64,000 bases of DNA, from positions 1 to 64,000 of the forward strand of contig NZ_BOMW01000064.1 in assembly GCF_016862395.1 (NCBI RefSeq), written 5' to 3'. The position numbers and the translations under genes are program-made. Shown piece after piece: positions 38,172-54,501 of this stretch. Position 1 is the first letter of the stretch; each line of letters begins with the position of its first letter. Source of the stretch: Actinoplanes siamensis. GTDB lineage: Bacteria; Actinomycetota; Actinomycetes; Mycobacteriales; Micromonosporaceae. The notes under the pieces were generated by a model that was not told the origin of the DNA, did not search any database, and saw only the letters and a list, made by a program, of their open reading frames with translations.

Positions 38172-38414
38172 ATGGATACTTCGATCACCCGTCACATCGT
38201 CACGGTTCTGACGGAACTGGACGTCCCGACGGCAGACGTCACGCCGGAAACGACTTTCGAGGCCATGGAGATCGACTCGCTGCTGCTGGAGGAGTTGGCC
38301 CTGCGTCTCCAGAGGTCCTTCGGAATCGAGATCGAGATAGGTGAGCTCGTCCCCGAGCAGACCGTCGCCGAGGCGGCTGCGGTAATCGCGGCCAAGAGTG
38401 TCGCTGTGGCCTGA
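38172..38414 (+). CDS. Free-standing acyl carrier protein
   Basis: 80 residues from the ATG at 38172 after GGGGGAAG. The phosphopantetheine site is Ser36 in EAMEIDSLLLEELA. The short acidic four-helix shape, with VTPETTFEAMEIDS before and EIEIGELVPEQTVAEAA after, is a normal ACP. It opens module C and would carry the acyl chain for the KAS III, AfsA-like and thioesterase proteins further on. The aryl-AMP ligase fragment just upstream hints that an aryl-loading partner was once present. Confidence 0.92.
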   Translation: MDTSITRHIVTVLTELDVPTADVTPETTFEAMEIDSLLLEELALRLQRSFGIEIEIGELVPEQTVAEAAAVIAAKSVAVA

Positions 38415-38525
38415 CGGGTTCCGGGCGTCCCGTCCGAGCACCGTCCCAACCCCGCATTTCGCCATTCCTGGCGGCGGTCCGCGCGGGTAGATCACTTATT
38501 CACACTCCGTCGGAAGGGAACAGGA

Positions 38526-39146
38526 ATGTCCGCCACTCTGCTCATCCTCACCGAAGTTGGCGTCGCTCCCGGCAGGGTGGACGAGGTGCTGGACCGCTGG
38601 GGCGAACTGAACGAGAAGGAACCGCTGGCCGGCCGCACCCTGCTCCGCAGCACGAACGGTGACACCGTTCTCGAGATCACGCCGGTCCAGGACTACGCCG
38701 AGCTGGATGCCATGTCGGCGGGCTGGCGGAGGCTGTGGGACACCGTCTCGATGGACTTGGTCACCGACTTCCGGCGCCAGCTCCTGGAGTTCGTCGAGGC
38801 GCCCAAGGACACCGTCGATCCGCTGCCCCGGACACGGCACATCCAGCTGCGGTACATCGAGGTCAAGCCGACGGAGTACGCGGCCTACCGCGAGTGGCGC
38901 GAGAAGACCATCTTCGACGTGGTTCGCCGTGCCGAGCAGGTCACCACGTTCCTGGCGTACCACACGCTGCTGAGCACTCAGCCCGGCGTGATGTTCGTGA
39001 CGGGTTTCGACTGCGACCCGGTGGAGTACCAGAAGGTCTTCGCCTCCCCCGAGTACCAGGACATCGTCCAGCAGGCCGGCGATCGTTTCATCGTCGGAGG
39101 CGAGAGCGGTCTGTACACCCGCGTCTACCAGCGTGCCGATGCCTGA
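38526..39146 (+). CDS. 206-residue protein with probable tandem ferredoxin-like (dimeric alpha/beta barrel) halves
   Basis: Two similar halves are visible: LLILTEVGVAPGRVDEVLDRW (residues ~5-25) and HIQLRYIEVKPTEYAAYREW (~109-128). Each begins with a beta strand and then an amphipathic helix, as in ABM/ferredoxin-fold monooxygenases or polyketide cyclases. I do not recognise a named family. The ATG has AGGAA upstream and the stop overlaps the next ATG. The place between an ACP and a tautomerase suggests a ring-forming or oxygenating step on a small acyl intermediate (inference). Confidence 0.8.
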   Translation: MSATLLILTEVGVAPGRVDEVLDRWGELNEKEPLAGRTLLRSTNGDTVLEITPVQDYAELDAMSAGWRRLWDTVSMDLVTDFRRQLLEFVEAPKDTVDPLPRTRHIQLRYIEVKPTEYAAYREWREKTIFDVVRRAEQVTTFLAYHTLLSTQPGVMFVTGFDCDPVEYQKVFASPEYQDIVQQAGDRFIVGGESGLYTRVYQRADA

Positions 39147-40032
39147 GACCGCCACCGCCCCCTGGACCGCCACCCCGGGTGTCACCGAGAAGCTGGAGCT
39201 CAGCCTCACCACTCAGGGCCCGCTCTACCCGCCGAGCGAAGTCATGGACGCCGACGGCAACTTCGTCGTGGTCGGGATGGTCAACCGGGCCACCCCGGAC
39301 GGTGCGATCCGGCCGGAGTGGGGCGCGGCGATCGTCTCGCCGGACAGTCCGCTGCCGGACTTCGGCGACCTCGCTCCGTACACCGTGGTGCGGGAATTGG
39401 ACTGTGAGCCCGACGGGCCCGACAAAGACATCGTCCTTTACACGCTTCCGCTGCCCCTGCCGTGCAACAACTACCCGATGGTGTTCGCGCCGGAGCAGCT
39501 GCCGGAGGCCGGCCGGGTCAAGCGACCCAGCCACGCCTTTCACGAGGTGCCCATCCCGGACCTGCGTCCCGAGGACGGGCCGAAGCTCACCACCCCGGTG
39601 ACCTTCGGCGCCTGGATGAGGGCGAGCGGCACCCTGGAGGTCGGGGTCACCTCCGACGGCTGTCACGGGACGTTCGGCTTCACGTTCTCCCGGCTCGTCC
39701 CGAACAGCGTCTACACCGTGATGTCGCTGCGTGCCCGCGACCTTGACCCCACCGGGCCCACCCGGCCCGGCCCGCTCGGAGTGCCGAACGTCTTCGTCAC
39801 CGACGCCGACGGGAACGGCCGCTATGACGCGACGCTGCCCAATCCATTCCCGGACCCAGGACTGCCCGAGGCCAACCGGATCATCAACGTGGTCGTGCTG
39901 TGGATGAGCTACCAGCGCAGCTACGGCGGCGCTATCGGCGAGTTCGGTCTCGGCGGCGACATCCACGCGCACCTCAAGCTACGCGGCGCGTCCTTCCAGA
40001 ACCTGCGGACCACCGCCGCCCCGCGGTCCTGA
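39139..40032 (+). CDS. 297-residue protein of unknown function
   Basis: Starts at the ATG at 39139, overlapping the previous stop. A GTG at 39133 is also possible. No signal peptide or membrane span is seen. The sequence is rich in beta-prone and Pro/Asp segments (SEVMDADGNFVVVGMVNR, YTLPLPLPCNNYPMVF, FGAWMRASGTLEVGV, MSLRARDLDPTGPTRPGP, VFVTDADGNGRYDATLP). The last includes an EF-like DxDGNGxxD loop that may bind calcium. I cannot place it in a family. Tight coupling to the 206-aa protein makes a shared step likely. Confidence 0.75.
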   Translation: MPETATAPWTATPGVTEKLELSLTTQGPLYPPSEVMDADGNFVVVGMVNRATPDGAIRPEWGAAIVSPDSPLPDFGDLAPYTVVRELDCEPDGPDKDIVLYTLPLPLPCNNYPMVFAPEQLPEAGRVKRPSHAFHEVPIPDLRPEDGPKLTTPVTFGAWMRASGTLEVGVTSDGCHGTFGFTFSRLVPNSVYTVMSLRARDLDPTGPTRPGPLGVPNVFVTDADGNGRYDATLPNPFPDPGLPEANRIINVVVLWMSYQRSYGGAIGEFGLGGDIHAHLKLRGASFQNLRTTAAPRS

Positions 40033-40072
40033 CCCGCCGCACCGTAGCCGCCATTCAGCACAGGAGAAGCCC

Positions 40073-40291
40073 ATGCCTATCATCGCCGTCACCACCTGGG
40101 ACGGTCAGAGCGACGCCCAGGCGCAGGAACTCATGCAGGAGCTGACCCGAACCGTCGGACGTGTGACGGGAGCCCCCCTGGACAAGATCACCGTCTACAT
40201 CCAGGAGGTGCCGCGCAGCCGCTGGGCGGAGGGCGGCGCTCTGGGCAGCGACCCGAAGTTCCCGGAACTGAGCCGCCGGCTCTCCGAGTGA
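40073..40291 (+). CDS. 4-oxalocrotonate tautomerase-like protein
   Basis: 72 residues. Pro follows the initiator Met (MPIIAVTTWDGQSDAQAQEL), giving the catalytic N-terminal proline after Met removal. The helix QELMQELTRTVGRVTG and strand KITVYIQEVPRSRWAEGG match the 4-OT/MIF fold. It would catalyse keto-enol tautomerisation or a related proton transfer. The ribosome site is AGGAGA, and the stop overlaps the AfsA-like start (GTGA). Confidence 0.85.
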   Translation: MPIIAVTTWDGQSDAQAQELMQELTRTVGRVTGAPLDKITVYIQEVPRSRWAEGGALGSDPKFPELSRRLSE

Positions 40292-41127
40292 GGGTGTCCG
40301 CCGAGATGCCCGAGACGACCAGCCGCACCGCAGCCGAAGTCGAAGCCGGCGCCTTCCTCCTCGTGGGCGACGTCTTCGCCGCATTCGCCGAGCACGAAGG
40401 CGTCCATACGGTGTCCCAACTCGCCCGGCAGATCAGGACGGGCGCGTTCCCCCACGGCACGGACCAGGTCCGGGTAACGCTCGGGCAGGGGGTGTCCCAG
40501 TTCGACGTCCAGTTCATCCACGACACGCTTGCCCGGCACGGCCTCACGGACGTGGTCGTGATCGACGACCAGGCGCTGCGTGACCGTGCCGGGCGGCGGA
40601 TCGCGCACAAGCACCGCGCAGAGAACGTGCTGATCTCCGTGCCCCGGCGGACCGGCCCCGACTCCTTCGAGTCGGACCTGCTGGTGGACTCGGGCAACGA
40701 GGTGATGTCCGACCACCTTACCGGCCAGCACATGCAGGGCATGCTGGCCATGGAGGCCGGGCGGCAGATGTTCATCGCGGTGGCCGAGCAGCACTACCTG
40801 CCGCCGGAGGCGGTCGGCGACAGCTATTTCGTGATCGACACCTTCGCCACCCACTACCGGAACTTCCTCTTCCCGCTGCCCGCGACCATCCGGTGCAAGG
40901 TTCTCTCGCACCGTTCGCCGCACCGCACCCGTACGACGTTCGCCTGCGAAGTCGTCGTGCTCCAGGGCGGCGGCGAGGCCGCGGTGATGGAGGTCAGATT
41001 CACCGCCTTCGACACCCAGGTCGCGCATGTCAAGGAAGCCCGCGCGGCCGAGCGATCCCTCCGGGACACCGTGGCGGTACTGGCGGGGGCGCTCGAACCG
41101 AACTCGACAGAGATGCAGGTCGTGTGA
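40288..41127 (+). CDS. Divergent single-domain AfsA-type hot-dog protein
   Basis: 279 residues. The AfsA hot-dog signature appears once, at about 140-210: SDHLTGQHMQGMLAMEAGRQ and FVIDTFATHYRNFLFPLP. The N-terminal ~110 residues (FAAFAEHEGVHTVSQLARQI, QFDVQFIHDTLARHGLTDVV) do not look like a second hot-dog. Classical AfsA has two and condenses a beta-ketoacyl chain with dihydroxyacetone phosphate to start gamma-butyrolactones. The gene is coupled to the tautomerase and followed by a HAD phosphatase. A similar acyl transfer is plausible but not shown. Confidence 0.82.
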   Translation: MRVSAEMPETTSRTAAEVEAGAFLLVGDVFAAFAEHEGVHTVSQLARQIRTGAFPHGTDQVRVTLGQGVSQFDVQFIHDTLARHGLTDVVVIDDQALRDRAGRRIAHKHRAENVLISVPRRTGPDSFESDLLVDSGNEVMSDHLTGQHMQGMLAMEAGRQMFIAVAEQHYLPPEAVGDSYFVIDTFATHYRNFLFPLPATIRCKVLSHRSPHRTRTTFACEVVVLQGGGEAAVMEVRFTAFDTQVAHVKEARAAERSLRDTVAVLAGALEPNSTEMQVV

Positions 41128-41181
41128 CCGAGCCTGGTCTCCAGTGACAGACGGCGGCCGGCATCGAGAAGGGCCCTGCAC

Positions 41182-41856
41182 ATGTCAGATGTACGCCCCT
41201 ACCTGGTCTTCAGTGACGTCGACGAAACGCTGATCACCGTCAAGAGCATGTTCGACTTCCTCCGTTACCAGCTGGTGCGCCAGCACGGCGATGCCGGGGA
41301 GGTGAGGTACGAGCGGATCATGGCGATGGTCCACAACATGGCCGGTGACGGCGCCCCCCGTGCGGACATCAACCGCTTCTACTACCGCCACTACGCCGAC
41401 CAGTCGGTGGAGACGATCGGCCGGCTCGCGGAGGACTGGTTCGCCGAACGCACCGCGTCCCGCCGGGGCTTCTACATCGAGGCGACCCGGGAGGCCCTGA
41501 GCGCTCATCGCGCCGCCGGTGCGACCGTCGTCCTCGTCTCCGGCTCCTTCCCGCCGCTGCTGGAGCCTCTCGCCCGCGAGGTGGGCGCCGACGCCGTCCT
41601 GTGTACCCGCCCGATCGTCGCCGACGGCCGTTACACCGGGGAGGTCGCCACTCCGGTCATCGGTACGGGCAAGAGCACCGCCGTGCTGGGGGTGTTGGAG
41701 TCCCGTCCCGACGTCGACCCGCGCGACTGCTGGGCCTACGGCGACCACGTCTCCGACCTGCCGATGCTGGAACTCGTGGGGCACCCCGTCGCCGTGGGGG
41801 AAAACCAGGAGTTGCGACAGCGGCTGGCCGATCGCGTCCGGGGAGTCACGGCCTGA
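41182..41856 (+). CDS. HAD-IB family phosphatase (SerB-like)
   Basis: 224 residues. Motif I is FSDVDETLI (nucleophile Asp and acid/base Asp), motif II is VVLVSGSFPPLLEPLA, and motif III/IV is WAYGDHVSDLPMLELVG. The helical cap between motifs I and II is of the phosphoserine-phosphatase type. In module C it could remove the phosphate from a butenolide-phosphate-like intermediate, the step that follows AfsA in A-factor-type pathways (inference). It could equally act on an unrelated phosphoester. Confidence 0.87.
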   Translation: MSDVRPYLVFSDVDETLITVKSMFDFLRYQLVRQHGDAGEVRYERIMAMVHNMAGDGAPRADINRFYYRHYADQSVETIGRLAEDWFAERTASRRGFYIEATREALSAHRAAGATVVLVSGSFPPLLEPLAREVGADAVLCTRPIVADGRYTGEVATPVIGTGKSTAVLGVLESRPDVDPRDCWAYGDHVSDLPMLELVGHPVAVGENQELRQRLADRVRGVTA

Positions 41857-42019
41857 CGGCCGGGCACCGGTGGTGCTCGCATCATCATGATGGAAACACC
41901 TCCCCCTCGGTGCCGTGCTTCCCGAGTGATCGTACGGAACGCGGCTGAATTGAACGCCGGCAATACCCCTGTAATGCCGAAACAAGTCGTCACGGAATCA
42001 CCGAACAAAAGGAACGAAG

Positions 42020-42829
42020 ATGGCTGAATTCGACTCTCGTGGCACGTTCCAGAAGGCCGCGAACGAGTACGCGAAAATCCAGGACGCCTTCCCCGACGTG
42101 ATCTGCGAGCCGCTGCTGGCCGACATGGCGGTCAAGGAGGGCGATCGGATCCTCGATCTGCCCTGCGGGACGGGCGATTCGATCGTCAAGGCGATGCAGA
42201 TCGCGGGGCCGTCCGGGCACGCCCTGGCCATCGACATCTCGGCCTCCATGATCGAGGAGGCCAAGGAGAAGGCGGAGGCCGCCGGCGTCAAGAACGTCGA
42301 CTTCGTCGTCGAGGACATGGACAAGGCGCAGTTCGACACCGCCGCGTACGATATCGTCGTGTCGGCCAACGGGCCCTTTTTCGCCGCCGACCTCAAGACT
42401 TTCCTGGCGAAGATGTGGGACGCGGTCAAGCCCGGCGGCAAACTGGTCACGATGACCCTGGGCCGCAATTTCCTGACGCCCATCTCCGGCATCTTCCTGG
42501 ACCGGGCGCAGATCAGGACCGAGGATTTGCGCATCTCCACACCCTGGAACATCACCGAGGACATCGCCTACTTCCGGGAAGTTCTCGAAGAGGTGACCCG
42601 GGGGCAGCGCATCAACATCATCCACCGGGACGCCGTCATGGATTACCAGACGGCCGACGGAGGGTGGAATCTCCTGATGGGTACCGCGTTCAGGAACTAC
42701 ACCCTGGCGATGTCACCGGAGCACCAGGCCGAGATCGAGGCGGAGATGAAGGAGTGGATGCAGGCCAACCGCCAGTTCTCCGCGACCTGCAGCTTCAACA
42801 ACATCACCGTCGTCAAGGACAACGTCTGA
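42020..42829 (+). CDS. Class I SAM-dependent methyltransferase
   Basis: 269 residues. SAM motif I is [17 protein letters not shown] near residue 50, followed by the acidic [14 protein letters not shown] and motif [14 protein letters not shown]. The rest ([29 protein letters not shown]) is typical of UbiE/COQ5-like small-molecule methyltransferases. It lies directly upstream of the MetK/kinase/MTHFR set, which would keep it supplied with SAM. The 160 nt before it include a GCACC-GGT-GGTGC palindrome near 41866. Confidence 0.88.
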
Positions 42830-42920
42830 GGTGAAGGCATCCGGCGGCCGAGTCGCCGTGCCCGGCCGCCGCCTCCTCCGGCGTCGAGTCACCTCACCGC
42901 CTCCCCTCCTGGAGAACGCC

Positions 42921-44135
42921 ATGTCCCGTCGTCTGTTCACCTCGGAGTCCGTGACCGAGGGTCACCCCGACAAGATCGCCGACCAGATCAGCGATGCCAT
43001 TCTCGATGCGCTCCTGCGCGAGGACCCCGGGTCCCGGGTCGCCGTGGAGACGCTCATCACGACCGGCCAGGTGCACGTGGCCGGCGAGGTCAAGACCACG
43101 GCCTACGCGCCGATCGCCCAGCTGGTGCGCGACACCGTCCTGGCCATCGGCTACGACTCGTCGGCGAAGGGCTTCGACGGCGCCTCCTGCGGCGTGTCGG
43201 TGTCGATCGGCACACAGTCCCCCGACATCGCCCAGGGCGTCGACACCGCGTACGAGACCCGGGTCGCAGGGAACGGCGAGCGTGACGAACTTTCCCGCCA
43301 GGGGGCGGGCGACCAGGGTCTGATGTTCGGGTACGCGTCGGACGAGACACCGACGCTGATGCCGCTCCCGATCTTCCTGGCCCACCGTCTCTCGAAGCGC
43401 CTGTCCGAGGTCCGCAAGAACGGCCTGGTCCCCTACCTCCGTCCGGACGGCAAGACCCAGGTCACCATCGAGTACGACGGTGACAAGGCGGTCCGTCTGG
43501 ACACCGTCGTCGTCTCCTCGCAGCACGCCGCCGAGATCGACCTGGACTCCCTCCTCGTCCCCGCCATCCGCGAGTTCGTCGTGGAGCCGGAGCTGACGGC
43601 CCTCCTGGACGACGGCATCAAACTGGACACCGGCGGCTACCACCTGCTGGTCAACCCGACCGGCCGATTCGAGATCGGCGGTCCGATGGGCGACGCCGGC
43701 CTCACCGGCCGTAAGATCATCATCGACACGTACGGCGGTATGGCGCGCCACGGCGGCGGCGCCTTCTCCGGCAAGGACCCGTCCAAGGTCGACCGCTCCG
43801 CCGCGTACGCGATGCGCTGGGTCGCCAAGAACGTCGTCGCGGCCGGCCTCGCGTCCCGCTGCGAGGTGCAGGTGGCGTACGCCATCGGCAAGGCCGAGCC
43901 CGTCGGTCTCTTCGTCGAGACCTTCGGCACCGCCATGGTCGACACCGACCGGATCGAGAAGGCCATCGACGAGGTGTTCGATCTCCGCCCGGCCGCCATC
44001 ATCCGCGACCTCGACCTGCTGCGCCCGATCTACGGCCTGACCGCCGCGTACGGTCACTTCGGCCGCGAGCTCCCGGAGTTCACCTGGGAACGCACGGATC
44101 GGGTCGAGGCGCTGCGCAAGGCCGCAGGAGTCTGA
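42921..44135 (+). CDS. metK: S-adenosylmethionine synthetase
   Basis: 404 residues with all MetK signatures: [31 protein letters not shown] near 120 and [20 protein letters not shown] near 270. It makes SAM from methionine and ATP in the cytosol. The sequence is nearly that of housekeeping Streptomyces MetK, so this is probably a second, cluster-borne copy. That is inference; the chromosomal gene is not in view. The start has GGAG upstream, and the stop is 1 nt before the PfkB gene. It is part of a SAM-supply set. Confidence 0.96.
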
Positions 44136-44136
44136 G

Positions 44137-45117
44137 ATGCGGGTCGCCGTCACCGGGTCCATCGCCACCGACCATCTGATGACCTTCCCGGGCCGCTTCA
44201 ACGACCACCTGCTGCCCGACCAGCTGGCCACCGTCTCGCTGTCCTTCCTGGTGGACGATCTCCAGGTGCGCCGGGGTGGCGTCGCCGCGAACATCGCCTT
44301 CGGCCTCGGCCTGCTCGGCGTCACTCCCTTGCTGGTCGGTGCGGTGGGCACCGACTTCGCCGAGTACGGCGCCTGGTTGAGCGCGCACGGCGTGGACGTC
44401 AGCCAGGTGCGGGTGAGCGAGCAGGCTCATACGGCCAGATTCATCTGCATCACCGACCGGGACCAGAACCAGATCGCCGCCTTCTACGCGGGTGCCATGG
44501 CGGAAGCGCGGCACATCGTTCTGGCCGACATCACGGCCCGGTGGGGCAGGCCCGACCTCGTCCTGATCGCGCCGGACGACCCACTCGCCATGCAGCTCCA
44601 CGCTTCCGCGAGCCGGCGGCTGGGCATTCCATTCGCCGCGGATCCCTCACAGCAGCTCGCCCGCCTGGAGAGCGACGAGGTCCGTCAACTCGTCGACGGA
44701 GCGCAGGTGCTCTTCAGCAACGAGTACGAGGCCGCGCTCCTGTGTGAACGCACCGGATGGACCAGGGACCAGGTCCTGAATCGCGTGGGCACCTGGGTCA
44801 CCACCCACGGTGCGAACGGGGTGACGGTCGCCACCCGGGGAGAGGCAGCCGTCACCGTTCCGGCCGTACCGTCCGACAAGGCTGTCGATCCCACCGGTGT
44901 GGGTGACGGCTTCCGCGCGGGATATCTCGTAGGCAAGGCACGCGGCCTGTCGAAGGAGCGGGCGGCCCAATGGGGGTGTGCCGTGGCCACCACGGTGCTG
45001 GAGACGGTGGGGCCCCAGGAGTACCGGTTGAGCGACGATCTGCTGGCACGGGTCGCCGACACCTATGGCGCGGACGCCGCGGTGGACATCGAGCGCTGTG
45101 CGGAGGTGCCGGTGTGA
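44137..45117 (+). CDS. PfkB-family kinase, probable adenosine kinase
   Basis: 326 residues. The PfkB signatures are [17 protein letters not shown] near 47 and the C-terminal [20 protein letters not shown] near 255 with catalytic Asp in GVGDGF. The N-terminus [15 protein letters not shown] matches the bacterial adenosine-kinase branch. It would remove adenosine released from S-adenosylhomocysteine and so relieve inhibition of methyltransferases. It lies between metK and an MTHFR gene and overlaps the latter (GTGA). No SAH hydrolase or methionine synthase is present in the window. Confidence 0.87.
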
Positions 45118-46013
45118 CGGCGCTCCGGGAACTGCTCGCCCAGGGAGAGCGGTCCTTCTCCTTCGAGTTCTTTCCGCCGAAGACGGAGGCGGGTATGCGG
45201 GTCCTGTGGGACACCATCCGTCGCGTCGAACCGCTCGCGCCCTCCTTCGTGTCGGTCACCTACGGCGCGGGTGGCTCGTCGCGGGACCGCACGATGGAGG
45301 TCACCGAGCGGATCGTGACCCAGACGACGCTCCGGCCCGTGGCACACCTCACGGCGGTCGGGCAATCGGCTGACGAACTGCGCCGTGTCATCGGTGAGTA
45401 CGCGGCGGCGGGAGTGCGGGACGTGCTGGCACTGCGCGGCGACCCGCCGGGGGATCCCAACGCGCCCTGGTCACCGCATCCGCAAGGCTTCCGGTACGCG
45501 CACGAGCTGGTGACGATGGTGCGGGAGTGCGGTGACTTCAGCGTCGGTGTCGCGGCCTTTCCCGAACGGCACCCGCGTTCCCCGGACTGGGAGAGCGACA
45601 TCCGGCACTTCGTAGCCAAGTGCGAGGCCGGCGCCGATTACGCGATCACTCAGATGTTCTTCCACGTGGAGGACTATCTGCGGCTGCGTGACCGGGTCGC
45701 CGCGGCCGGCTGTGACACCCCGATCATCCCGGAGATCATGCCCGCCACCGACATCCGGCAGATCGCCCGGTTCGCCGAGCTGAGCCACGCCACCTTTCCC
45801 CGCGAACTGGCCAGGCGTCTGGAGCAGGCCCAGGACGATCCGGCGGAGGGGCGGCGCATCGGGGTCGAATACGCCACCACCATGGCCGACCGGCTCCTCG
45901 ACGAAGGCGCTCCGGGCCTGCACTTCATCACGCTCAACCGTTGCACGGCGACGCTCGAGATCCACCGCAACGTCCTGGGCTCGAGGAGTGCGCACGCCGT
46001 CGTGCCTGGCTGA
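45114..46013 (+). CDS. metF: 5,10-methylenetetrahydrofolate reductase
   Basis: 299 residues from a GTG at 45114 that overlaps the kinase stop. MTHFR motifs: [14 protein letters not shown] near 15, [16 protein letters not shown] near 45, [14 protein letters not shown] near 105 and [20 protein letters not shown] near 170. It makes 5-methyl-THF for methionine regeneration, completing a partial SAM-recycling cassette with metK and the kinase. A strong hairpin follows its stop. Confidence 0.93.
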
Positions 46014-46022
46014 CCGCACGCT

Positions 46023-46058
46023 GATATACCCCACCTCCGTATGGAGGTGGGGTATATC
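46023..46058. terminator. Bidirectional hairpin terminator
   Basis: GATATACCCCACCTCC and GGAGGTGGGGTATATC form a perfect 16-bp stem around a GTAT loop. It lies between the convergent MTHFR (ends 46013) and regulator (stop at 46057) genes and would end transcription from both sides. Confidence 0.88.
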
Positions 46059-47007
46059 AATTCAACGACCGTTGCTGGCTGGTGAGGTTCACCGGCTGAC
46101 CGGTACGCATCGGGTCGCGGTCGCCGAGCGCTTGCAGCGGGAGGGCGGGAGTCGGGCTGAGGGCGCCCGTGGCGTCCAGCCGGAGCATGGCCTTTTCGTC
46201 CGCGGTGTCGGGGGCGGCCTGATAGACCACCATCCGCTGGCCGCCCGCCCGTGCCAGACGCATGACCTCGTAGGTCAGGGTCATCGGTCCGACCTTCGGA
46301 TGCTGGAAGGACTTCTGCCCACCACCGCGCTCGCTGACGTCGTACCGCTCCCAGATCCGCGCGAACTCCGGTGACTTCACCATCAGTTCGCCGACGAGCG
46401 CCGTCAGCTCGGGGTGGTCGGGGTCGGCTCCGGCGACCGCGCGCAAATGCGCCACCGAGAGCGCGGCCGTCTCCTCCCACTGCGCGTAGAGCGCCCGGCC
46501 GACCGGATGGAGGAACATGTAGCGGGTCACGTTGCGCTGGTCCTCGGGCCAGTCCCAGACTCCGGGCATCAGCCGCCGGCCGGGCCGGTTCGCCGCCAGC
46601 AGGCGGTTGCAACGGTTCACCACATAGGCGGGCAACGGGCGTATCGACTCCAGCATCCGCAGCACCGAGTCACGGACGGTGTCCTCCAGGCCGGCCGGCA
46701 GGTCGGAGGGCCGGCCGCAGGCCAGCTCGGCGAGTTCGTGCAGGCGTTCGTAACCGTCGTCGCGCAGCCGTAGTGCCCGGCCGAGGGCGTCCAGCACGGC
46801 GGGGGACGGATTGGTCTCGCGCCCCCGCTCCAGGCGGATGTAGTAGTCGACGCTCACGCCGGCGAGCACGGCCAGTTCCTCCCGGCGCAACCCGGGAGTG
46901 CGGCGCAGGCTCCCACCAGCCGAAAGGCCGACGTCCTCCGGGCGTACCTGCGCCCTCCGGGCCTTCAGATACCGGCCGAGTTCGGTGCCTCTCGCCTCTG
47001 CTGCCAT
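46057..47007 (-). CDS. MmyB-type XRE transcriptional regulator 1
   Basis: 316 residues from the ATG at 47007; a TTG at 47031 is an alternative. The N-terminal HTH is LGRYLKARRAQVRPEDVGL, then RTPGLRREELAVLAGVSVDY and YIRLERGRETNPSPAVLDAL. The C-terminal PAS-like MmyB ligand domain includes VVNRCNRLLAANRPGRRLMP, NVTRYMFLHP and WERYDVSERGGGQKSFQHP. MmyB relatives bind small hydrophobic ligands and control antibiotic clusters. It converges on the SAM-supply set. Confidence 0.9.
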   Translation of the reverse strand: MAAEARGTELGRYLKARRAQVRPEDVGLSAGGSLRRTPGLRREELAVLAGVSVDYYIRLERGRETNPSPAVLDALGRALRLRDDGYERLHELAELACGRPSDLPAGLEDTVRDSVLRMLESIRPLPAYVVNRCNRLLAANRPGRRLMPGVWDWPEDQRNVTRYMFLHPVGRALYAQWEETAALSVAHLRAVAGADPDHPELTALVGELMVKSPEFARIWERYDVSERGGGQKSFQHPKVGPMTLTYEVMRLARAGGQRMVVYQAAPDTADEKAMLRLDATGALSPTPALPLQALGDRDPMRTGQPVNLTSQQRSLN

Positions 47008-47250
47008 CAGACCATTGTCGTAGGGGGTCAAGGCTTTTAGGAGGCCGTGTCAGGGCCTGGAACGCGGCACCTCGGGGACAGCGCGGTCTGCCGGAGGGCC
47101 GCGCGGACGTGAAGAGTCGATGCCGGAGCGGGCGGCCCGGCCGTCGTGGCTCAGGGGGTGCGAGACACCGGACCGCGGCCCCGACGCGCGGTGGCCGCCC
47201 GCCCAGCCATCTTCCGATGATCCGTCACCTGTGCGAGCCCAGGAGTCAGC

Positions 47251-48666
47251 ATGTCAACCATTCCGCGATCGCAGCGGGCGCCCGCGCTGCAACGACAGCC
47301 GGACCCGGACCCGACCGCCGCGCCGCCGCGGTCGAGGGGCATCGCCCTGGCCGCCGCGTTACTCGGGTTCGTCGTGATCACCATCGACGTCTCGGCCGTC
47401 AACATCGCGTTGCCCGCGATTCAGGGCTCTCTCAGCGGTGGGATGGCCGGGCTGCAGTGGGTGGTCGACGCCTACACCCTGATGTTCGCGGCCCTGATGC
47501 TCTCCGCAGGCTCCCTCGCCGACCGTGCCGGCGCCCGCCGCGCCTACGTCTGGGGCGTCGCCCTCTTCAGCCTGGCGTCCCTCGGCTGCGCGCTGGCGCC
47601 CGGCATCGGCGTGCTGGTCGCCGCGCGCGTGGCGCAGGGCGCCGCCGCCGCGGTAGTGATGCCGGCCTCGCTGGCGCTGATCCGGCAGGCCTACGACGAC
47701 CCGCAGGCACGCGCCCGTGCCATCGCGATCTGGACGGCCGGCGGCGCGGTGGCGATGGCCGCGGGTCCGGTGCTGGGCGGGCTGCTCACCGAGGCGGCCG
47801 GTTGGCGGGCCGTGTTCCTGCTCAACCTTCCGGTGGGCGCGGTGATCCTGGGCCTGCTGATCCGGGTGCAGCACTCCCCGCGCCGGCCCGCCGTGCTGGA
47901 CGGCGGTGGCCAGCTCACCGCGATTCTGGCCCTGGCCGGACTGGCCTTCGCGGTGATCGAGGGTGGTCACCTGGGCTGGACCAGCGTGCCCGTGCTGGTC
48001 GCGGCGGCGATCGCCATCGCTTCCGGGTACGCCTTCGGCGTGATCGAGGCACGGCACCGCCAACCCATGGTCCCGCCGAGCATCCTGAAGGACCGCCGGG
48101 TGACCGTCGCGCTCGCGGTCGGGTTCGCCGTCAACGCCGCCTTCTACGGCGGGATCTTCCTGCTGGGGCTGTACTACCAGCAGCTGCGAGGGATGTCGGG
48201 GATCACGGCCGGGCTGTTGTTCGTCCCGCTGTCGGCGTTGGTGACGACGTCCAATCTGGTGTCGCCGCGGCTGGCGGAGCGGATCGGGCGGCGTTCGGTG
48301 ATCGTCGCCGGGCAGTTGATTTTCATCGTGGCGATGCTGGCCCTGATGCTGTTGGCCGCGGACACTCCCGTGTGGCTTGTGCTGATCCTCCTGCTCCCGC
48401 TGAGCACCGGTGGGGCGCTCGCGGTGCCCGCGTTGACCGCCCTGCTGATGGACTCGGTTCCGCCGGAGCGCGCGGGGACCGCGTCCGGGCTGCTCAACTC
48501 TCTTCGCCAGACCGGCGGTGCGCTGGCCGTCGCCCTGTTCGGCAGCCTGCTCGCCAGTTCCGGCGGGGGTTTCTCCCTCCCGGGCATGCGCGTCGGCCTT
48601 CTCGTCGTCGCCCTGGTCCTCGGCGGCACCGCCGTTCTCTCGCGCTTTGTCCTGTCCCGCGACTGA
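47251..48666 (+). CDS. 14-span MFS exporter (DHA2 type)
   Basis: 471 residues. GFVVITIDVSAVNIALPAIQ marks the first span, followed by LQWVVDAYTLMFAALMLSAG, LADRAGARRAYVWG (motif A) and the antiporter motif AVAMAAGPVLGGLLTEAAG. The start has GGAG upstream. It is divergent from MmyB-type regulator 1, the usual regulator/exporter arrangement, so the regulator probably controls it. Likely the export route for the module C product. Confidence 0.92.
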   Translation: MSTIPRSQRAPALQRQPDPDPTAAPPRSRGIALAAALLGFVVITIDVSAVNIALPAIQGSLSGGMAGLQWVVDAYTLMFAALMLSAGSLADRAGARRAYVWGVALFSLASLGCALAPGIGVLVAARVAQGAAAAVVMPASLALIRQAYDDPQARARAIAIWTAGGAVAMAAGPVLGGLLTEAAGWRAVFLLNLPVGAVILGLLIRVQHSPRRPAVLDGGGQLTAILALAGLAFAVIEGGHLGWTSVPVLVAAAIAIASGYAFGVIEARHRQPMVPPSILKDRRVTVALAVGFAVNAAFYGGIFLLGLYYQQLRGMSGITAGLLFVPLSALVTTSNLVSPRLAERIGRRSVIVAGQLIFIVAMLALMLLAADTPVWLVLILLLPLSTGGALAVPALTALLMDSVPPERAGTASGLLNSLRQTGGALAVALFGSLLASSGGGFSLPGMRVGLLVVALVLGGTAVLSRFVLSRD

Positions 48667-48768
48667 GCGCGGCAATGGATTCCACGCGAGGGTCGACGCG
48701 GTGGAGCCGGGGCCACCCCCGGGCCCGGCTCCACCGCGCGGGGCGCCGACCGGTCGCCGGCGGCAGCT

Positions 48769-48783
48769 GGTGGTGGCACCACC
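48769..48783. promoter_or_regulatory. GGTGGTG/CACCACC palindrome upstream of the thioesterase
   Basis: GGTGGTG-G-CACCACC is a perfect 7-bp palindrome 51 nt before the thioesterase ATG. Related sequences lie upstream of the ACP (38029-38062) and KAS III (50534-50551) genes. Confidence 0.45.
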
Positions 48784-48834
48784 CTGTTCGACAGACACTC
48801 TGCAACCTGCGGCTTCATCGGCACACTGGTGGGC

Positions 48835-49587
48835 ATGGCCCACACGACGCGATATGTCACGGTGGAAACGAGCGGCGCGACCGTGGGCACTGCCCCGCTG
48901 CGCCTGTTCTGCTTTCCCCATGCGGGCGGCAGCGCCTGGTCCTTCGCGGGTTGGGGACAACGGCTCGGGCGCGAGATCGCCGTGGTGCCGGTGTCCCCGC
49001 CCCCGCGGTCGGTGTCCGTCAGCACGATGGACGACCTCGTCCGCGCAGTGGACGAGCGGTTTGCTCCGGCGCTCGACGAGCCGTACGCCTTCTACGGCCA
49101 CAGCATGGGCTCGCTGGTAGCCTACGGGGTGGCCCAGCGCCGCCTCGCCGCCGGCCGCCCACCGCCCGTCTGCTTCGTGGTCGGGGCCCACCGCGCACCA
49201 CATCTGCCCGCTCCGGATCTGATCGGCGACCTGTCGGACGCCGTTGCGCTCGAGCTGCTGCTGGGCCTGGGCGGAGCCGGCCGGCTGCTGCGGGAGAACC
49301 CCCGGCGGATGCGGGCCGTGGTGGACCGGCTCCGTCAGGATTTGTCGATCAGCGCCACCTACCGGCATCCGACGGAGGGGCACCGGCCGCTCCCGTGTCC
49401 GATCCATGTGCTCCACGGCAGCGACGACCAGCTGGTTTCCGCCGCTCACGCGGCGGCCTGGGACCGGCACACGGCGGGGTCCTTCTCGCTGCGGATCCTG
49501 CCCGGGGGTCATTTCTTCCACAAGGAGCACCAGGAGCTGTTCCTGACGGAGTTGCGGAAGGCCCTGCTGCTGGCGGTGAACCACTGA
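48835..49587 (+). CDS. Type II thioesterase (alpha/beta hydrolase)
   Basis: 250 residues from the ATG at 48835 (a GTG at 48829 is also in frame). FCFPHAGGSAWSFAGW near residue 25, the nucleophile elbow YGHSMGSLVAYG near 88, and the C-terminal Asp/His region HGSDDQLVS and LPGGHFFHKEH match editing thioesterases (TEII/RifR type). It clears stalled or wrong acyl groups from carrier proteins, fitting the ACP of module C and possibly the PKSE. No strong ribosome site is seen. Confidence 0.9.
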   Translation: MAHTTRYVTVETSGATVGTAPLRLFCFPHAGGSAWSFAGWGQRLGREIAVVPVSPPPRSVSVSTMDDLVRAVDERFAPALDEPYAFYGHSMGSLVAYGVAQRRLAAGRPPPVCFVVGAHRAPHLPAPDLIGDLSDAVALELLLGLGGAGRLLRENPRRMRAVVDRLRQDLSISATYRHPTEGHRPLPCPIHVLHGSDDQLVSAAHAAAWDRHTAGSFSLRILPGGHFFHKEHQELFLTELRKALLLAVNH

Positions 49588-49667
49588 GCTCGGACCGTTG
49601 CGTGGCTCGTCCGGCATGTGACCAGCCGCACTGACAATTCGTGTTCGTCGGGCTACCTTCCGCTAGC

Positions 49668-50495
49668 ATGGACCCCAGGCCCTCCATCTCCGGTAGCCAG
49701 AAGAAGCGGCGCACCGAGCTGACGCACTTCTTGCGCAGCCGTCGCGCCGCGCTCTCTCCTGCCGACGTCGGCATGCGCTCGGCGGGCGGTCGGACCCGGG
49801 CGGGCCTGCGCCGGGAAGAGGTCGCTGTGCTGGCCGGGGTCAGCGCGTCCTGGTACGCGTGGCTGGAGCAGGGCCGCCCCATCAGAGTCTCCGGCGGGAT
49901 CCTGGACGCCATCAGCCGCGCGCTGCGCCTGACCGAGCGCGAGCGCGTCCATCTGTACCGGCTCGCCGAAGCCAACCCTCCATTCCCGTCACCAGGCATG
50001 AATTCCTCAGACAACGAGTTCTTCCAACGAGTGGTCGACACCCAGCTGCTGGGACCGGCGTGCGTCATCGACAGGTACTGGGATGTCCTCGCCGCCAACG
50101 AGCAAGCCGCCCGGATGCTCCACCTGGGGCGGGAGGGCAACGAGAACTTCCTGGTCGGTCTGTTTACCGGATCGCACGGTCGCCGGTACGTCGATCTGCC
50201 CCGGGTGGCCCGTCAGATGACCGCCCGCTTCCGCCTCCAGACGTCCTACTTCGCCGACGATCAGCGGTACGAGCGGATGGTGGACGGCCTCGCCGCGGAC
50301 AGCACGCGGTTCGCCGAGTTGTGGTGCCGTCACGAGGTCGAGGAGTTCGTGCCCACGACGGTCGAACTGAACCACCCCGACCGGGGCCCGGCCCCCTTCA
50401 CGCTGTTCACGATGGATCTCGACGACGCCTCCAACGTGCGGCTGCTGGTGTATCTGCCCCAAACAGACACCGGTCCGGAGTCGGCCCGGGGGTGA
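49668..50495 (+). CDS. MmyB-type XRE transcriptional regulator 2
   Basis: 275 residues from the ATG at 49668. HTH: KKRRTELTHFLRSRRAALSP, AGLRREEVAVLAGVSASWYA and WLEQGRPIRVSGGILDAISR. The MmyB domain follows: VIDRYWDVLAANEQAARMLH, NFLVGLFTGS and RMVDGLAADSTRFAELWCRH. It is closely similar in layout to regulators 1 and 3. It lies between the thioesterase and KAS III genes on the same strand and is followed by a hairpin. Confidence 0.9.
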   Translation: MDPRPSISGSQKKRRTELTHFLRSRRAALSPADVGMRSAGGRTRAGLRREEVAVLAGVSASWYAWLEQGRPIRVSGGILDAISRALRLTERERVHLYRLAEANPPFPSPGMNSSDNEFFQRVVDTQLLGPACVIDRYWDVLAANEQAARMLHLGREGNENFLVGLFTGSHGRRYVDLPRVARQMTARFRLQTSYFADDQRYERMVDGLAADSTRFAELWCRHEVEEFVPTTVELNHPDRGPAPFTLFTMDLDDASNVRLLVYLPQTDTGPESARG

Positions 50496-50504
50496 CGTCT
50501 CCCA

Positions 50505-50531
50505 GTTCCCGGGTTCGCCGTACCCGGGAAC
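50505..50531. terminator. Hairpin after MmyB-type regulator 2
   Basis: GTTCCCGGGT and ACCCGGGAAC form a perfect 10-bp stem with a 7-nt loop, starting 10 nt after the regulator stop. There is no T-run, which is common for actinomycete terminators. Confidence 0.7.
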
Positions 50532-50533
50532 AT

Positions 50534-50551
50534 GGTGGTGCTGCCACCACC
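50534..50551. promoter_or_regulatory. GGTGGTG-CTGC-CACCACC palindrome upstream of KAS III
   Basis: A perfect 7-bp inverted repeat with a CTGC spacer, directly after the terminator-like hairpin and 262 nt before the KAS III start. It resembles the palindromes before the ACP and thioesterase genes. The rest of the 317-nt gap to the KAS III start shows no gene. Confidence 0.45.
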
Positions 50552-50812
50552 GGAGCCAGACACAGCGCCAACACGATCTGGTAGGACGGTGCCCGGCCGC
50601 CCGATAATTCTTGTACGCCTTGGTGCGCCCGCACGACAGGGCCGTATCAGGCCGTTCCCACGTACCCTGCCACGTTCGCCGTGCCTACCCGTCCGGACCG
50701 GAGGGGTGGCGTGTTCCGACGGACCAGGGCTACGACGCCCGGCACCGGCAATGAGGGAGGCCCCCTTGGTATCCACGCTGCGCGAAGAACCTCTGGCGAA
50801 GGAGGCGGCGGC

Positions 50813-51823
50813 ATGATCAGGGCTGCGGTCCTCGCCGGACTCGGGACGTACGTGCCGTCCCGCGTCATCACCAACGACGATCTCTCCCGGATCCTGGACA
50901 CCTCCGACGAATGGATCCGCTCACGCACCGGTATCGCCCAGCGTCACTGGGCCCCACCCGGCACCGCCACCGGTGACCTGGCCGTCGAGGCCGGCGGGCG
51001 GGCGCTGAAGTCCTCCGGCTCCGGCGACGTCGATCTGGTCGTCGTCGCCACGACCACGCCGGATCACCCTTGCCCGGCCACCGCTCCCGGTGTCGCCCAC
51101 CGGCTGGGCCTGAACGCGGTCGCCGCGTACGACATCGCCGCCGTGTGCAGCGGATTCGTTTACGCGATGGCGTCCGCGGCGGGCGCCATCGCCGCCGGCA
51201 TCGCCGACCGCGTGCTGGTCATCGGGGCGGAGACCTACTCCACGATCCTCAATCCCGAGGACCGCACCACCTCGGTCATCTTCGGCGACGGTGCCGGGGC
51301 CGTGGTGCTGCGGGCCGGCGACCCGTCCGAGCCGGGCGCCCTGCTCGGGCACGACCTGGGAAGCGACGGCTCGCTCAAGGACCTGATCATCGTCCCGGCC
51401 GGCGGCTCCCGCCAGCCTGTCGCCGCGGTGGCCGCGTCCGGCGACCGCCCGGCCGAGACGTACTTCCAGATGGAGGGCAAGCCGGTCTTCCGGCACGCCG
51501 TGACCCGCATGGTGGCCTCGTCCGAAGCCATCCTCCATCGCGCCGGCTGGGCCCCCGAGTCGGTGGACTGGTTCGTCGGCCACCAGGCGAACGTCCGGAT
51601 CCTGCACGCCGTCGCCGACCAACTCGGCATCGACCGCGACCGGACGGTCGTCAATCTGGACCGCGTCGGCAACACGTCGGCCGCCTCCATTCCGCTGGCA
51701 CTGGACGACGCCGCCTCCAGAGGCCTGCTGACGCCCGGCGACCGGGTGCTGATGAGCGCTTTCGGCGGCGGGCTGACCTGGGGCTCCACCGCCCTGGTCT
51801 GGCCGGAGATCGTCACGGGCTAG
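50813..51823 (+). CDS. 3-oxoacyl-ACP synthase III (KAS III/FabH-like)
   Basis: 336 residues from the ATG at 50813 after GGAGG. The catalytic triad is complete: Cys112 in AAVCSGFVY, His257 in VGHQANVRIL and Asn287 in RVGNTSAAS. The N-terminus LAGLGTYVPSRVITNDDLS and SDEWIRSRTGIAQRHW are FabH-like. It would condense an acyl-CoA starter with malonyl-ACP, here probably on the free ACP of module C, to give a beta-ketoacyl chain that an AfsA-like enzyme could use (inference). A simple extra fabH for fatty acid starters is the alternative. Confidence 0.93.
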   Translation: MIRAAVLAGLGTYVPSRVITNDDLSRILDTSDEWIRSRTGIAQRHWAPPGTATGDLAVEAGGRALKSSGSGDVDLVVVATTTPDHPCPATAPGVAHRLGLNAVAAYDIAAVCSGFVYAMASAAGAIAAGIADRVLVIGAETYSTILNPEDRTTSVIFGDGAGAVVLRAGDPSEPGALLGHDLGSDGSLKDLIIVPAGGSRQPVAAVAASGDRPAETYFQMEGKPVFRHAVTRMVASSEAILHRAGWAPESVDWFVGHQANVRILHAVADQLGIDRDRTVVNLDRVGNTSAASIPLALDDAASRGLLTPGDRVLMSAFGGGLTWGSTALVWPEIVTG

Positions 51824-51928
51824 GCAATTCCACCGGGCGGCCGTCAGCACAGGAGACCGGCGGCCGCCGTCCTCCGTACCGAGCGGCAGTCCCGCCGTGA
51901 CCGATCACCGAGAACGAGGAGCTGGACA

Positions 51929-52591
51929 ATGCCCGAATCCACGCCCGATTCCCCGCCGCTGCGCATCGCCGTCCTCGGCGCGGGCAACATCGGACGCCCC
52001 CTGGCCCGCCACTGGCTGGCCGCCGGTCACACCGTGACCTTGGGCTCCCGGACTCCGGACCGGCTCGCCCCCCTTGTCGAGGAGTGGGGTGGGCGGGCGC
52101 GGGCGACCACGTACCCGGACGCGGTGGCCGCCAGTGACGTGGCGCTGCTCTCGGTGCCGCGTCCGAGTCTCGAGGAGGTGCTGGAGCAGGTGGCCGACCG
52201 CCTGACCGGGAAGACCGTCATCGACGCCACCGCCTCGATCGGGCTCTCGGCGGACGGCCTGTTCGTGTCCGGGTTGGGCGCGGGCATGACCCAGGGCAGC
52301 TGGTCGGCGAAGCGGCTGCCCGGGAGTGCGGTCGCGCGAGCATTCAGCCACCTCCCGGGCGAGCTGCTGTGGCCGCGAGGTACACAGCAGCGGCATTTCT
52401 GGGGGATGGCGGTCGCCGCAGACGACGCGGACGCGCTCCGCATCACGGAACGTCTTGTCCGCGACGCCGGCTTCGTCCCGGTGCCACTCGGCGTTCTGGA
52501 CGAGTCCGCGGCGATGGAGCCTGGTGGCGTGCTCTTCGGATACCTCTCGACGCCGGCCGGCCTGCGCAGGGCCGCGGGCATCAGCGGCTGA
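51929..52591 (+). CDS. NADP-binding oxidoreductase (F420-dependent NADP reductase-like)
   Basis: 220 residues. The Rossmann motif is IAVLGAGNIGRPLARHWLAA near residue 13, followed by TLGSRTPDRLAPLV and AVAASDVALLSVPRPSLEEV. The C-terminal domain (GMAVAADDADALRITERLVR, DAGFVPVPLG) matches the small pyrroline-5-carboxylate-like NADP-binding family. It could supply the reduction step expected for a butenolide-like intermediate. The ATG has GAGGAGC upstream. A strong terminator follows. Confidence 0.88.
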   Translation: MPESTPDSPPLRIAVLGAGNIGRPLARHWLAAGHTVTLGSRTPDRLAPLVEEWGGRARATTYPDAVAASDVALLSVPRPSLEEVLEQVADRLTGKTVIDATASIGLSADGLFVSGLGAGMTQGSWSAKRLPGSAVARAFSHLPGELLWPRGTQQRHFWGMAVAADDADALRITERLVRDAGFVPVPLGVLDESAAMEPGGVLFGYLSTPAGLRRAAGISG

Positions 52592-52607
52592 GGTCTCTTC
52601 CGGGCAT

Positions 52608-52649
52608 ACGAAGCGACCGCCTGTCCGATGGGCCGGGCGGTCGCTTCGT
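52608..52649. terminator. Bidirectional terminator
   Basis: ACGAAGCGACCGCC and GGCGGTCGCTTCGT form a perfect 14-bp stem with a 14-nt loop. It lies between the convergent oxidoreductase and acyltransferase genes, with a short GTTT after the stem. Confidence 0.9.
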
Positions 52650-52657
52650 GTTTCCGG

Positions 52658-53863
52658 TCAGCGCTCCTCGATGGCCAATCCGGCGACGAGTGGCTGGGAC
52701 TCCGCGGGGACCGCCTCCCGCTGCGCGGCCACCGGCCTCTTCCTCGGGTTGGACCAGCGCCGGGTGATGGGGCGCTCGATCAAGGAGTACAGCGCCCAGG
52801 ACGCGAGGATCGAGACGCCGAGGCCGAGCACCAGCATGGCCGCGGCCTGTGGCCCGGTGTAGAGCTTGCTGCCGAGCAACTTCCACAGGCCTTCCAGCAC
52901 GGTGAAGTGCACGAGATAGAAGGCGAACGAGATGTCGCCGAGCCAGACCGTCACCTTGTTGCGGAAGACGGTGAAGCGGCGGTCCCGGTCCGCGATGGCG
53001 CCGGCCGCGATGAGAATGGCGGCCGGGATGACGCAGACGGCACGCGACGAGTAGATGTACGGCGTGAAATAGCCGAGCACGTAGCTGGCGACCAGCAGGG
53101 CGCCGGCCCAGACCATACCGATGTTGCGCCAGCGTCCCGTCATCACCGAGCGGGCCACCAGGATGCCGAGGGCGAAGTCCAGGATCCGCGGGAACGGCAG
53201 GATGTACGAATAGAAGTACTGGTTCACCGAGGTCTCGGGCTCCATGGGCATGAACACGGATTTGGCCGGGGCGAGATGGGTGGACAGGAACGGCGTGGCG
53301 ATGATGCCCAGGCCGACGATCGCGACCCAGAGATTGATGCGGTTGACCGGGATCTTCTTGATCAGGCGGAGCAGCAGCGGGAAGGACAGATAGAAGACCG
53401 CCTCGACCGCCAGGGACCAGCCGGCCGGGTTCACGCCGAAGTTGATGGAGAAGTCCGGGTAGTAGACCTGGAGCATGAAGAAGTTGAGCAGCCCGATCTT
53501 CATGTCGGTGCGAGGTGCCGCGAAGACCACCATGGCCAGCACCCAGACCACCAGATAGTTCGGGACGATCTTGAGGAACCGGCGGCGCCAGAAGCGTGGC
53601 GCGGTGTCCGTGTCCCGAGCCGACCAGGTCAGCACGAAGCCGCTGAGCACGAAGAAGAAGCTGACACCGAGCGCGCCCGCGTGGTGCACGGAGCGGTAGT
53701 AGTCGTGCACGTTCTCGGGGCTGAGCCAGTTCAGGCCCAGGTAGCCGAGCAACGCCGCGTGGTAGAGAAACACCACGAACGCGGCGGGAAAACGCAGCCC
53801 GGTCAGCGTGTTGAGGCGAATGACCCGGGAGCGCACTGTCGCACTCATTCGGTCTGTGGACAC
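52658..53863 (-). CDS. Acyltransferase 3 family membrane protein
   Basis: 401 residues from a GTG at 53863 with GGAG upstream. About ten spans are seen. The acyltransferase-3 pattern is LNTLTGLRFPAAFVVFLYHA at the start with the conserved Arg-x10-His, then GVSFFFVLSGFVLTWS and FWRRRFLKIVPNYLVVWVL. These enzymes acylate sugars, macrolides or envelope glycans from the membrane. It converges on module C and may decorate its product or belong to the host. Confidence 0.9.
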   Translation of the reverse strand: MSTDRMSATVRSRVIRLNTLTGLRFPAAFVVFLYHAALLGYLGLNWLSPENVHDYYRSVHHAGALGVSFFFVLSGFVLTWSARDTDTAPRFWRRRFLKIVPNYLVVWVLAMVVFAAPRTDMKIGLLNFFMLQVYYPDFSINFGVNPAGWSLAVEAVFYLSFPLLLRLIKKIPVNRINLWVAIVGLGIIATPFLSTHLAPAKSVFMPMEPETSVNQYFYSYILPFPRILDFALGILVARSVMTGRWRNIGMVWAGALLVASYVLGYFTPYIYSSRAVCVIPAAILIAAGAIADRDRRFTVFRNKVTVWLGDISFAFYLVHFTVLEGLWKLLGSKLYTGPQAAAMLVLGLGVSILASWALYSLIERPITRRWSNPRKRPVAAQREAVPAESQPLVAGLAIEER

Positions 53864-53899
53864 GTATCTACTCCTCAGGAAATGTGGGTCCGGATAAGC

Positions 53900-54390
53900 G
53901 TAAGTTACCCGACCCTTCCCGCTGTTGCGGGGGTGGATTTATCCGGTTACTGCCAGCACCATCGGAGCGACCAACAGGTTGCGACGGGCGGAGGTGGCGT
54001 CCAGCGATTCCCGATTCGTTGTGGATTCCTCGAAGAATTCATCGCAACACCGCATACCGCTACCGCGACGGAGGCGTCGCGGGCTCGCCGTCCAGGGGCA
54101 GAATCTGTGCGCCGGCTTGAGACGGGTCGCCCGCGACGGCTGGTCGTACGTGATCCTCGACGGCAAGCTCTAGCGTCACCGCCGTGCTGAAACTGGTCAG
54201 CCGCCGAGCTCGAGCTGTCCTCCCTGGCCGACTCACGCTACGAAAGTGCAGGCCACGGTATGGAGAACTGGATCAAGCAGCCCGCGGATGGCAAACCGCT
54301 TGCTCTCGACAATCGGGCCTATAGCCCACTCCTGCGCGGCCCGCGGTGGCAGGACAAACCCGGCTTCGCGATCTGATGGACCGCTGGAAA
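53900..54390 (+). mobile_element. Decayed IS5-family transposase
   Basis: Pieces of a DDE transposase appear in changing plus-strand frames: an LSYP-like start (VSYPTLPAVAGVDLSGY, about 53900), a TAYRYRDGGVA helix-turn-helix piece (about 54052) and LRRVARDGWSYVILDGKL with a stop at 54172 (about 54115-54174). ADGKPLALDNRAY follows further on (about 54285-54325). Frameshifts and stops make it inactive. Ends and inverted repeats could not be defined. Confidence 0.6.
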
Positions 54391-54501
54391 CCCTGCGTCA
54401 CACCACCGTCAGCCCGCGCCGGACCGGCGATGTCGTCGCCGCTGCACCGCACCTGACGCACTACGAATACAACTACAGATCCGGGCGGTGTCGAGCTCAG
54501 T

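Follow-up and report, generated by a model that had tools for sequence, protein, structure and literature searches.

Does a bacterial locus built around an AfsA-like enzyme make a hormone or a weapon? The question is raised by a stretch of 64,000 nucleotides from the soil actinobacterium Actinoplanes siamensis (contig NZ_BOMW01000064.1, positions 1 to 64,000; hereafter the window), in which a cluster at 38172-55305 seems to us, on balance, to encode a self-contained AfsA-type pathway to a small antimicrobial that probably induces its own synthesis. Its product is probably an antibiotic of small size, methylated and akin to a butenolide or furan. Five genes on the forward strand form the core: p206, a two-domain ABM-fold (dimeric alpha/beta barrel) protein (38526-39146); the hallmark protein p297, of 297 residues, whose start overlaps the p206 stop (39139-40032); a 4-oxalocrotonate-tautomerase (4-OT) family protein with relatives in the PDB (40073-40291; PF01361); the AfsA-like single-hotdog protein (40306-41127); and a HAD-IB phosphatase with a DxD motif (41182-41856; PF12710, E 8e-37, TIGR01490).

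These genes travel together. Gene presence was scored around p297 in 25 loci (the window, genome G017 and loci L004-L026), with identities taken from best local segments at E<=1e-6; the relatives were collected by a p297 search, so p297 itself is present in all 25 by construction. Near it stand an AfsA-like gene in 25 loci, a HAD gene in 24, p206 in 23 and 4-OT in 19, in hosts from three phyla that include, beyond the actinomycetes, a Burkholderiaceae metagenome-assembled genome (MAG), Leptothrix, Paraburkholderia, Pantoea, Serratia, a gammaproteobacterial MAG, Shimia, Ruegeria and Myxococcus. Because AfsA and HAD accompany p297 in 25 and 24 of the 25 loci across three phyla, their association is, judged by gene neighbourhood, far beyond chance. 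The catalytic residues are retained throughout: H137, E150 and R153 of the AfsA-like protein in 25/25 loci and D136 in 24/25, HAD residues D12, D14 and D188 in 24/24, the N-terminal proline of 4-OT in 19/19, the serine of the free acyl carrier protein (ACP; Ser36 in the window) in 12/12 matched loci, and the Cys-His-Asn triad of the beta-ketoacyl synthase KAS III (C112, H257 and N287) in 16/16. The preliminary description of this DNA had proposed a small-molecule cluster of AfsA type, and a coherent cluster of this kind is supported, with SAM supply of its own and an intact KAS III and ACP for a beta-ketoacyl substrate. The single locus among the 25 with no HAD match, L024 of Shimia marina, also lacks a 4-OT match and has broken p206 and p297 frames (4665-6434), which suggests a decayed copy or a poor assembly. 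Some further absences may be explained by short loci (L020 of 8.8 kb, L007 and L009 of about 15 kb), and the ACP of L026 is annotated there yet unmatched in our table. The cluster type is patchily distributed, with p297 in 3 of 67 genomes of the genus and, in a sample of the phylum, in the window only (1/396), the latter a weak census in which six candidates were scored per listed genome.

Genetic precedent comes from the megaplasmid of Ruegeria pomeroyi DSS-3 (L025), where the same five genes lie adjacent, with AfsA before p297 (p206, AfsA, p297, 4-OT, HAD), whereas the order in the window (38526-41856) is p206, p297, 4-OT, AfsA, HAD. Best-segment identities to the window proteins are 57% for p297, 52% for p206, 45% for 4-OT, 39% for HAD and 35% for AfsA. 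The report by Sharpe, Gifford and Septer (2020; PMC7426152) names the AfsA protein SPOA0342 and places it between hypothetical proteins SPOA0341 and SPOA0343; from gene order we take SPOA0343 as p206, SPOA0341 as p297, SPOA0340 as 4-OT and SPOA0339 as HAD. As described there, the cluster is required for the diffusible killing of competitors, six non-killer transposon mutants map to it, including insertions in SPOA0341 and SPOA0342, and five of its proteins make up 1-6% of the proteome; a homologue of SPOA0342 was found in 35 organisms, and 29 of these have the two flanking genes as well. In the same report most of the cluster depends on afsA for its transcription, 21 genes being changed in the afsA mutant, of which 10 belong to the cluster and are 4-60-fold lower, and the product may therefore induce its own cluster. 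In this model marine bacterium the killing agent was unidentified in 2020, and the question of signal or weapon was left open in that paper; later open-licence literature, among the matches listed, contained none that we saw naming the product. The window cluster would thus offer a richer handle on the molecule, as it joins the same core to a likely substrate supply (KAS III and ACP), tailoring and export, while around the Ruegeria core no S-adenosylmethionine (SAM) supply genes, type II thioesterase (TEII) or acyltransferase are annotated, and an aldo/keto reductase and a carboxymuconolactone decarboxylase lie nearby.

The Ruegeria authors labelled theirs a putative gamma-butyrolactone (GBL) cluster and, without identifying a product, considered a GBL-like molecule as antimicrobial or signal. 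A classical GBL hormone cluster, its product a signal and the antibiotic made elsewhere, would indeed account for the AfsA domain and for the MmyB-type regulators of the window, but the AfsA-like protein itself argues otherwise. It shares with AfsA, ScbA and BarX the PF03756 hotdog domain (E 1.1e-17) and the DH...E..RQ motif, yet has one such domain where the classical synthases have two, and it scores 20.6 bits on the ScbA/BarX model against a cut-off of 200. Two PF03756 matches were present in 13 of 16 comparison AfsA proteins, the three single ones including the p297-linked copy of G017. In the AfsA-domain tree the copies linked to p297 form a group separate from the two-domain ones, with support 95/72 (48 rows, with L021, L024 and four short reference domains left out, and the G017 copy entered a second time as L003). 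A single-domain copy without p297, ref_L055, falls inside the linked group, and because of its position there p297 linkage needs two changes on the tree. One domain, the low model score and the separate grouping rule against a canonical GBL synthase, and the protein, apart from which its genome gave no AfsA-domain match, is probably not a classical one by these sequence measures. A trace hormone would moreover seldom come with an exporter, tailoring enzymes and SAM supply, all of them present in the cluster. In Ruegeria (PMC7426152), 21 changed genes with 10 of them in the cluster leave little room for a separate AfsA-controlled antibiotic cluster. We therefore consider the hormone explanation quite unlikely. 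The product class, put forward in the preliminary description as a methylated, acyl-derived small molecule (butenolide, furan or similar), stays a prediction, and a classical A-factor-type molecule is not favoured.

A stronger competitor is AvrD/MmyD-type chemistry, in which a beta-ketoacyl-ACP and a C5 sugar phosphate would give a cyclopentanone or a glycerol-furan, as in methylenomycin or sphydrofuran. The sphydrofuran genes of Streptomyces ambofaciens are the closest characterised set that we found and those for methylenomycin the next, both with AvrD-type enzymes. Table 2 of PMC11195616 lists for the sphydrofuran island KAS III, ACP, an ABM protein, a phosphatase, a hotdog protein, an aldo/keto reductase, a carboxymuconolactone decarboxylase and an MFS protein, a content that the window parallels in KAS III, ACP, ABM protein, phosphatase, hotdog protein, reductases and MFS; this is a likeness of gene descriptions, not of sequences, and a p297 relative may be present there. 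Among the 23 loci L004-L026, nine have an aldo/keto reductase and nine a carboxymuconolactone decarboxylase, and in the window neither of the sphydrofuran sort was found at E<=1e-12. PMC12593393 proposes that methylenomycin arises from acetoacetyl-ACP and a pentulose, the former made by the KAS III-like MmyC and the ACP MmyA, and describes a butenolide synthase and a TEII-like MmyT. However, the condensing enzyme of the window is of AfsA type, in contrast to the AvrD-family enzyme of the sphydrofuran island and the AvrD-like MmyD (again compared by description, not sequence), its phosphatase is HAD where sphydrofuran has one of the histidine phosphatase family, and no AvrD-family domain was detected in ten window proteins scanned (Pfam, E<=0.1). 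On this evidence AvrD/MmyD-type chemistry is an unlikely source of the product, though one worth keeping in mind. The preliminary description knew of no described cluster with this exact set of genes; with its core shared by Ruegeria and its wider logic resembling that of sphydrofuran, the cluster is not wholly new.

The cluster might instead be a tailoring module for other clusters in the window. On the same contig, at 0.3-14 kb, lies a polyketide synthase (PKS) cassette (344-14084) that we take to be enediyne-type, with two DUF1702 proteins, an UnbV/FG-GAP protein, a PKS of 1928 residues, a 4HBT thioesterase, a flavin reductase, a P450 and an SCP2 protein. Yet strong synteny ends at 38172, a DUF1702 match occurs in only 2 of 13 other p297-carrying genome entries (G005 and G061 being one strain), the match in G017 lying some 0.2 Mb away. 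We therefore reject dependence on the cassette; the AfsA cluster looks independent of it, and a tailoring role is very improbable.

How might an AfsA-type pathway to an antimicrobial proceed? The free ACP of 80 residues (38172-38414; PF00550, E 5e-10) and KAS III (50813-51823; FabH-type, NF006829, E 9e-121, with FabH relatives in the PDB) are both intact and predicted to supply a short beta-ketoacyl-ACP. KAS III is matched in 16 of the 25 loci, all actinobacterial; the Pantoea and Serratia loci have no KAS III match and a thiolase directly after the core, an arrangement consistent with a short beta-ketoacyl thioester, acetoacetyl for example. The AfsA-like protein would join this thioester to dihydroxyacetone phosphate (DHAP), or another C3 or C5 ketose phosphate, and close a butenolide, and the HAD enzyme would strip the phosphate. 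A comparable AfsA-type butenolide formation with DHAP and a phosphatase is proposed for gladiofungin (PMC7756420), in which an AfsA domain would offload a polyketide chain; there, however, it belongs to a modular PKS, whereas in the window it is a free enzyme accompanied by KAS III and ACP. By oxidation and isomerisation p206, 4-OT and p297 would then convert the butenolide to the active scaffold. Decoration would fall to an NAD(P)-dependent reductase of the F420_oxidored family (51929-52591; PF03807, E 1e-20), a class I SAM methyltransferase (42020-42829; PF13649, E 2e-20) fed by its own SAM supply, and a membrane O-acyltransferase (Acyl_transf_3) on the reverse strand (52658-53863; PF01757, E 3e-31). 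TEII (48829-49587; PF00975, E 5e-33; start uncertain, alternative 48982) would edit, a DHA2-type MFS protein (47251-48666; TIGR00711, E 2e-62, under the curated cut-off) would export, and the MmyB regulators would control the cluster, whose product would presumably kill competitors of this host as well. TEII, reductase and acyltransferase are each found in 12 of the 25 loci. Literature searches returned no publication joining AfsA with 4-OT, nothing relevant on PenE/pentenomycin among the matches listed and, likewise among those listed, no lead for combinations of hotdog, tautomerase and ABM or of DHAP, butenolide and AfsA; the words EamA, phosphatase and thiolase were not found in the main text of a survey of Pantoea antibiotics (PMC11350110).

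Several points weigh against this pathway. We know of no member of the cluster type whose product is known, and our evidence does not single out one sugar phosphate as the partner. The Ruegeria core has no KAS III or ACP annotated in the 18.8 kb surrounding it, and its adjacent regulators are LysR-type, those of the window cluster MmyB-type. No match to p206 was found in L020 and L022, nor to 4-OT in L020-L024 and L026 (6 of 25 loci), so the steps assigned to these proteins are not universal, L020 being only 8.8 kb. In Pantoea latae (L021) the AfsA-like gene is divided between overlapping frames of 149 and 99 residues (9244-9989), which points to a disrupted gene or an error in sequencing. The role given to p297 is a guess, as it has no known relative, and the protein could serve for protection rather than biosynthesis, since in Ruegeria the immunity of SPOA0341 mutants is partly lost (PMC7426152). 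However, according to the same account afsA mutants remain immune, even though one of them shows a 4-60-fold drop in 10 cluster genes, and this makes an immunity protein less likely.

The two proteins assigned to the middle of the pathway differ in what their structures offer. From its predicted model (pLDDT 90) p206 is by fold a double ABM-type (dimeric alpha/beta) barrel: Foldseek gave 105 PDB matches at E<=0.001, with query-length TM up to 0.74 among the best 50 of the 105. Its Pfam ABM score of 12.8 bits is below the 23.1 cut-off, weak ABM hits (E<=10) occur in 10 of 21 family members, the best at 0.0077, and kinship to oligopeptide-binding proteins or annexins was dismissed, the profile matches being E 0.039 or worse. 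For the window p297 neither a Pfam family nor, at E<=10, a PDB relative by sequence was found, and in an alignment of 21 rows 82 columns are invariant. Its model is of fair to good quality, with a mean pLDDT of 84 and some weak stretches, and the fold search returned no convincing match among those listed, the best E value being that of POLDIP2 (8.8e-4, TM 0.22). Many chains of Cu,Zn superoxide dismutase (SOD) were also among the matches listed, with target-length TM reaching 0.55 but query-length TM no higher than 0.27 among the 50 listed; p297 is therefore not taken for an SOD, though part of the model may be an SOD-like beta-sandwich. We tentatively entertain, without regarding it as the likelier outcome, that p297 founds a new enzyme family converting an AfsA-made butenolide into an unseen antibiotic scaffold, in an AfsA-p297 system common to actinomycetes, Alpha-, Beta- and Gammaproteobacteria and Myxococcus; AfsA-type chemistry would in that case be a means of attack besides its use in hormones. 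Strongly conserved and without a known family, p297 now has a defined genetic context.

The SAM-supply genes follow the core in the window: after the methyltransferase come MetK, the S-adenosylmethionine synthetase (42921-44135; TIGR01034, E 1.5e-162), a PfkB-family protein (44137-45117; PF00294) and methylenetetrahydrofolate reductase (MTHFR; 45114-46013; TIGR00676, E 1.7e-101, above the cut-off). The best PDB match of the PfkB protein is adenosine kinase 4o1g (E 5e-104), which refines the family call of the preliminary description and makes the block a SAM-cycle set. No second full-length copy of MetK was matched in the genome; elsewhere, contigs C12 and C44 (L035 and L036) each hold a partial match to its N-terminal part, one of them at the extreme contig start. 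The methyltransferase has 82-88% identity in three other loci and 28% in one further locus. Because the block occurs in only 4 of 25 loci (the window, G017, L005 and L006), is inverted at the far end of the cluster in G017, and has distant copies beside another AfsA/HAD pair, it is, as gene arrangement indicates, modular and separable from the core: SAM supply was correctly recognised, but it is an option and not an integral part of the cluster. The distant copies, relatives of MetK, PfkB and MTHFR at 79, 62 and 57%, lie in a second G017 cluster (L070, 3378-14369) that holds a single-hotdog AfsA-like gene, a HAD gene and a methyltransferase, no p297 match, and ACP-, SDR- and AMP-ligase-like genes named by the appearance of their translations, not by family search. 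Eight full-type loci without the block (L004 and L007-L013) have a GH3-type gene in its place, which suggests a possible acid-amide coupling step; an LCM methyltransferase accompanies it in seven of the eight, the L007 stretch stopping before that gene. In L008 (12855-20489) and the same region of the other seven, known as far as each stretch extends, ATPase-like, GH3, LCM methyltransferase, FAD-enzyme and DUF6182 genes are found.

The extent of the cluster was set by comparing the window genes from 24 kb onward with the 23 loci L004-L026. Gene calls and family searches recovered every gene type named in the preliminary description (ACP, the two unplaced proteins p206 and p297, 4-OT, AfsA-like, HAD, methyltransferase, MetK/PfkB/MTHFR, MFS, TEII, KAS III, reductase and acyltransferase), and its three MmyB regulators all carry PF17765: regulator 1 on the reverse strand (46057-47031; E 1e-54, with HTH_31; start uncertain, alternative 46869), regulator 2 on the forward strand (49641-50495; E 5e-29) and regulator 3 on the reverse strand (54502-55305; E 2e-32; 66-92% identity in the other 11 full-type loci). 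Apart from regulators 1 and 3 and the acyltransferase, all genes of the cluster lie on the forward strand. An MmyB-type regulator is also part of the methylenomycin cluster. Of the interval first given, 38172-53863, the start stands, as synteny begins there, but the end moves to 55305, so as to take in the third MmyB gene. A complete set of ACP, p206, p297, 4-OT, AfsA, HAD, TEII, regulator 2, KAS III, reductase, acyltransferase and regulator 3 is present in 12 of the 25 loci (the window, G017 and L004-L013), all actinobacterial. The cluster is thus real and well bounded, of a patchily widespread type that has genetic precedent, yet no product that we located. Upstream, a 1082-residue protein (29326-32574) directly after a gene that looks, from its translation, like an FAD enzyme (27830-29329) has no match at the p297 loci L004-L026. 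A LysR gene (35261-36172) and an MFS gene (36256-37719) are taken as outside the cluster, because their matches there are weak and few (28-30% in L014 and L015, 2 of 23 loci, and 30-38% in L005, L006 and L020, 3 of 23). Beyond the other end a small open reading frame (55425-55799) has a weak match of 44% in L005.

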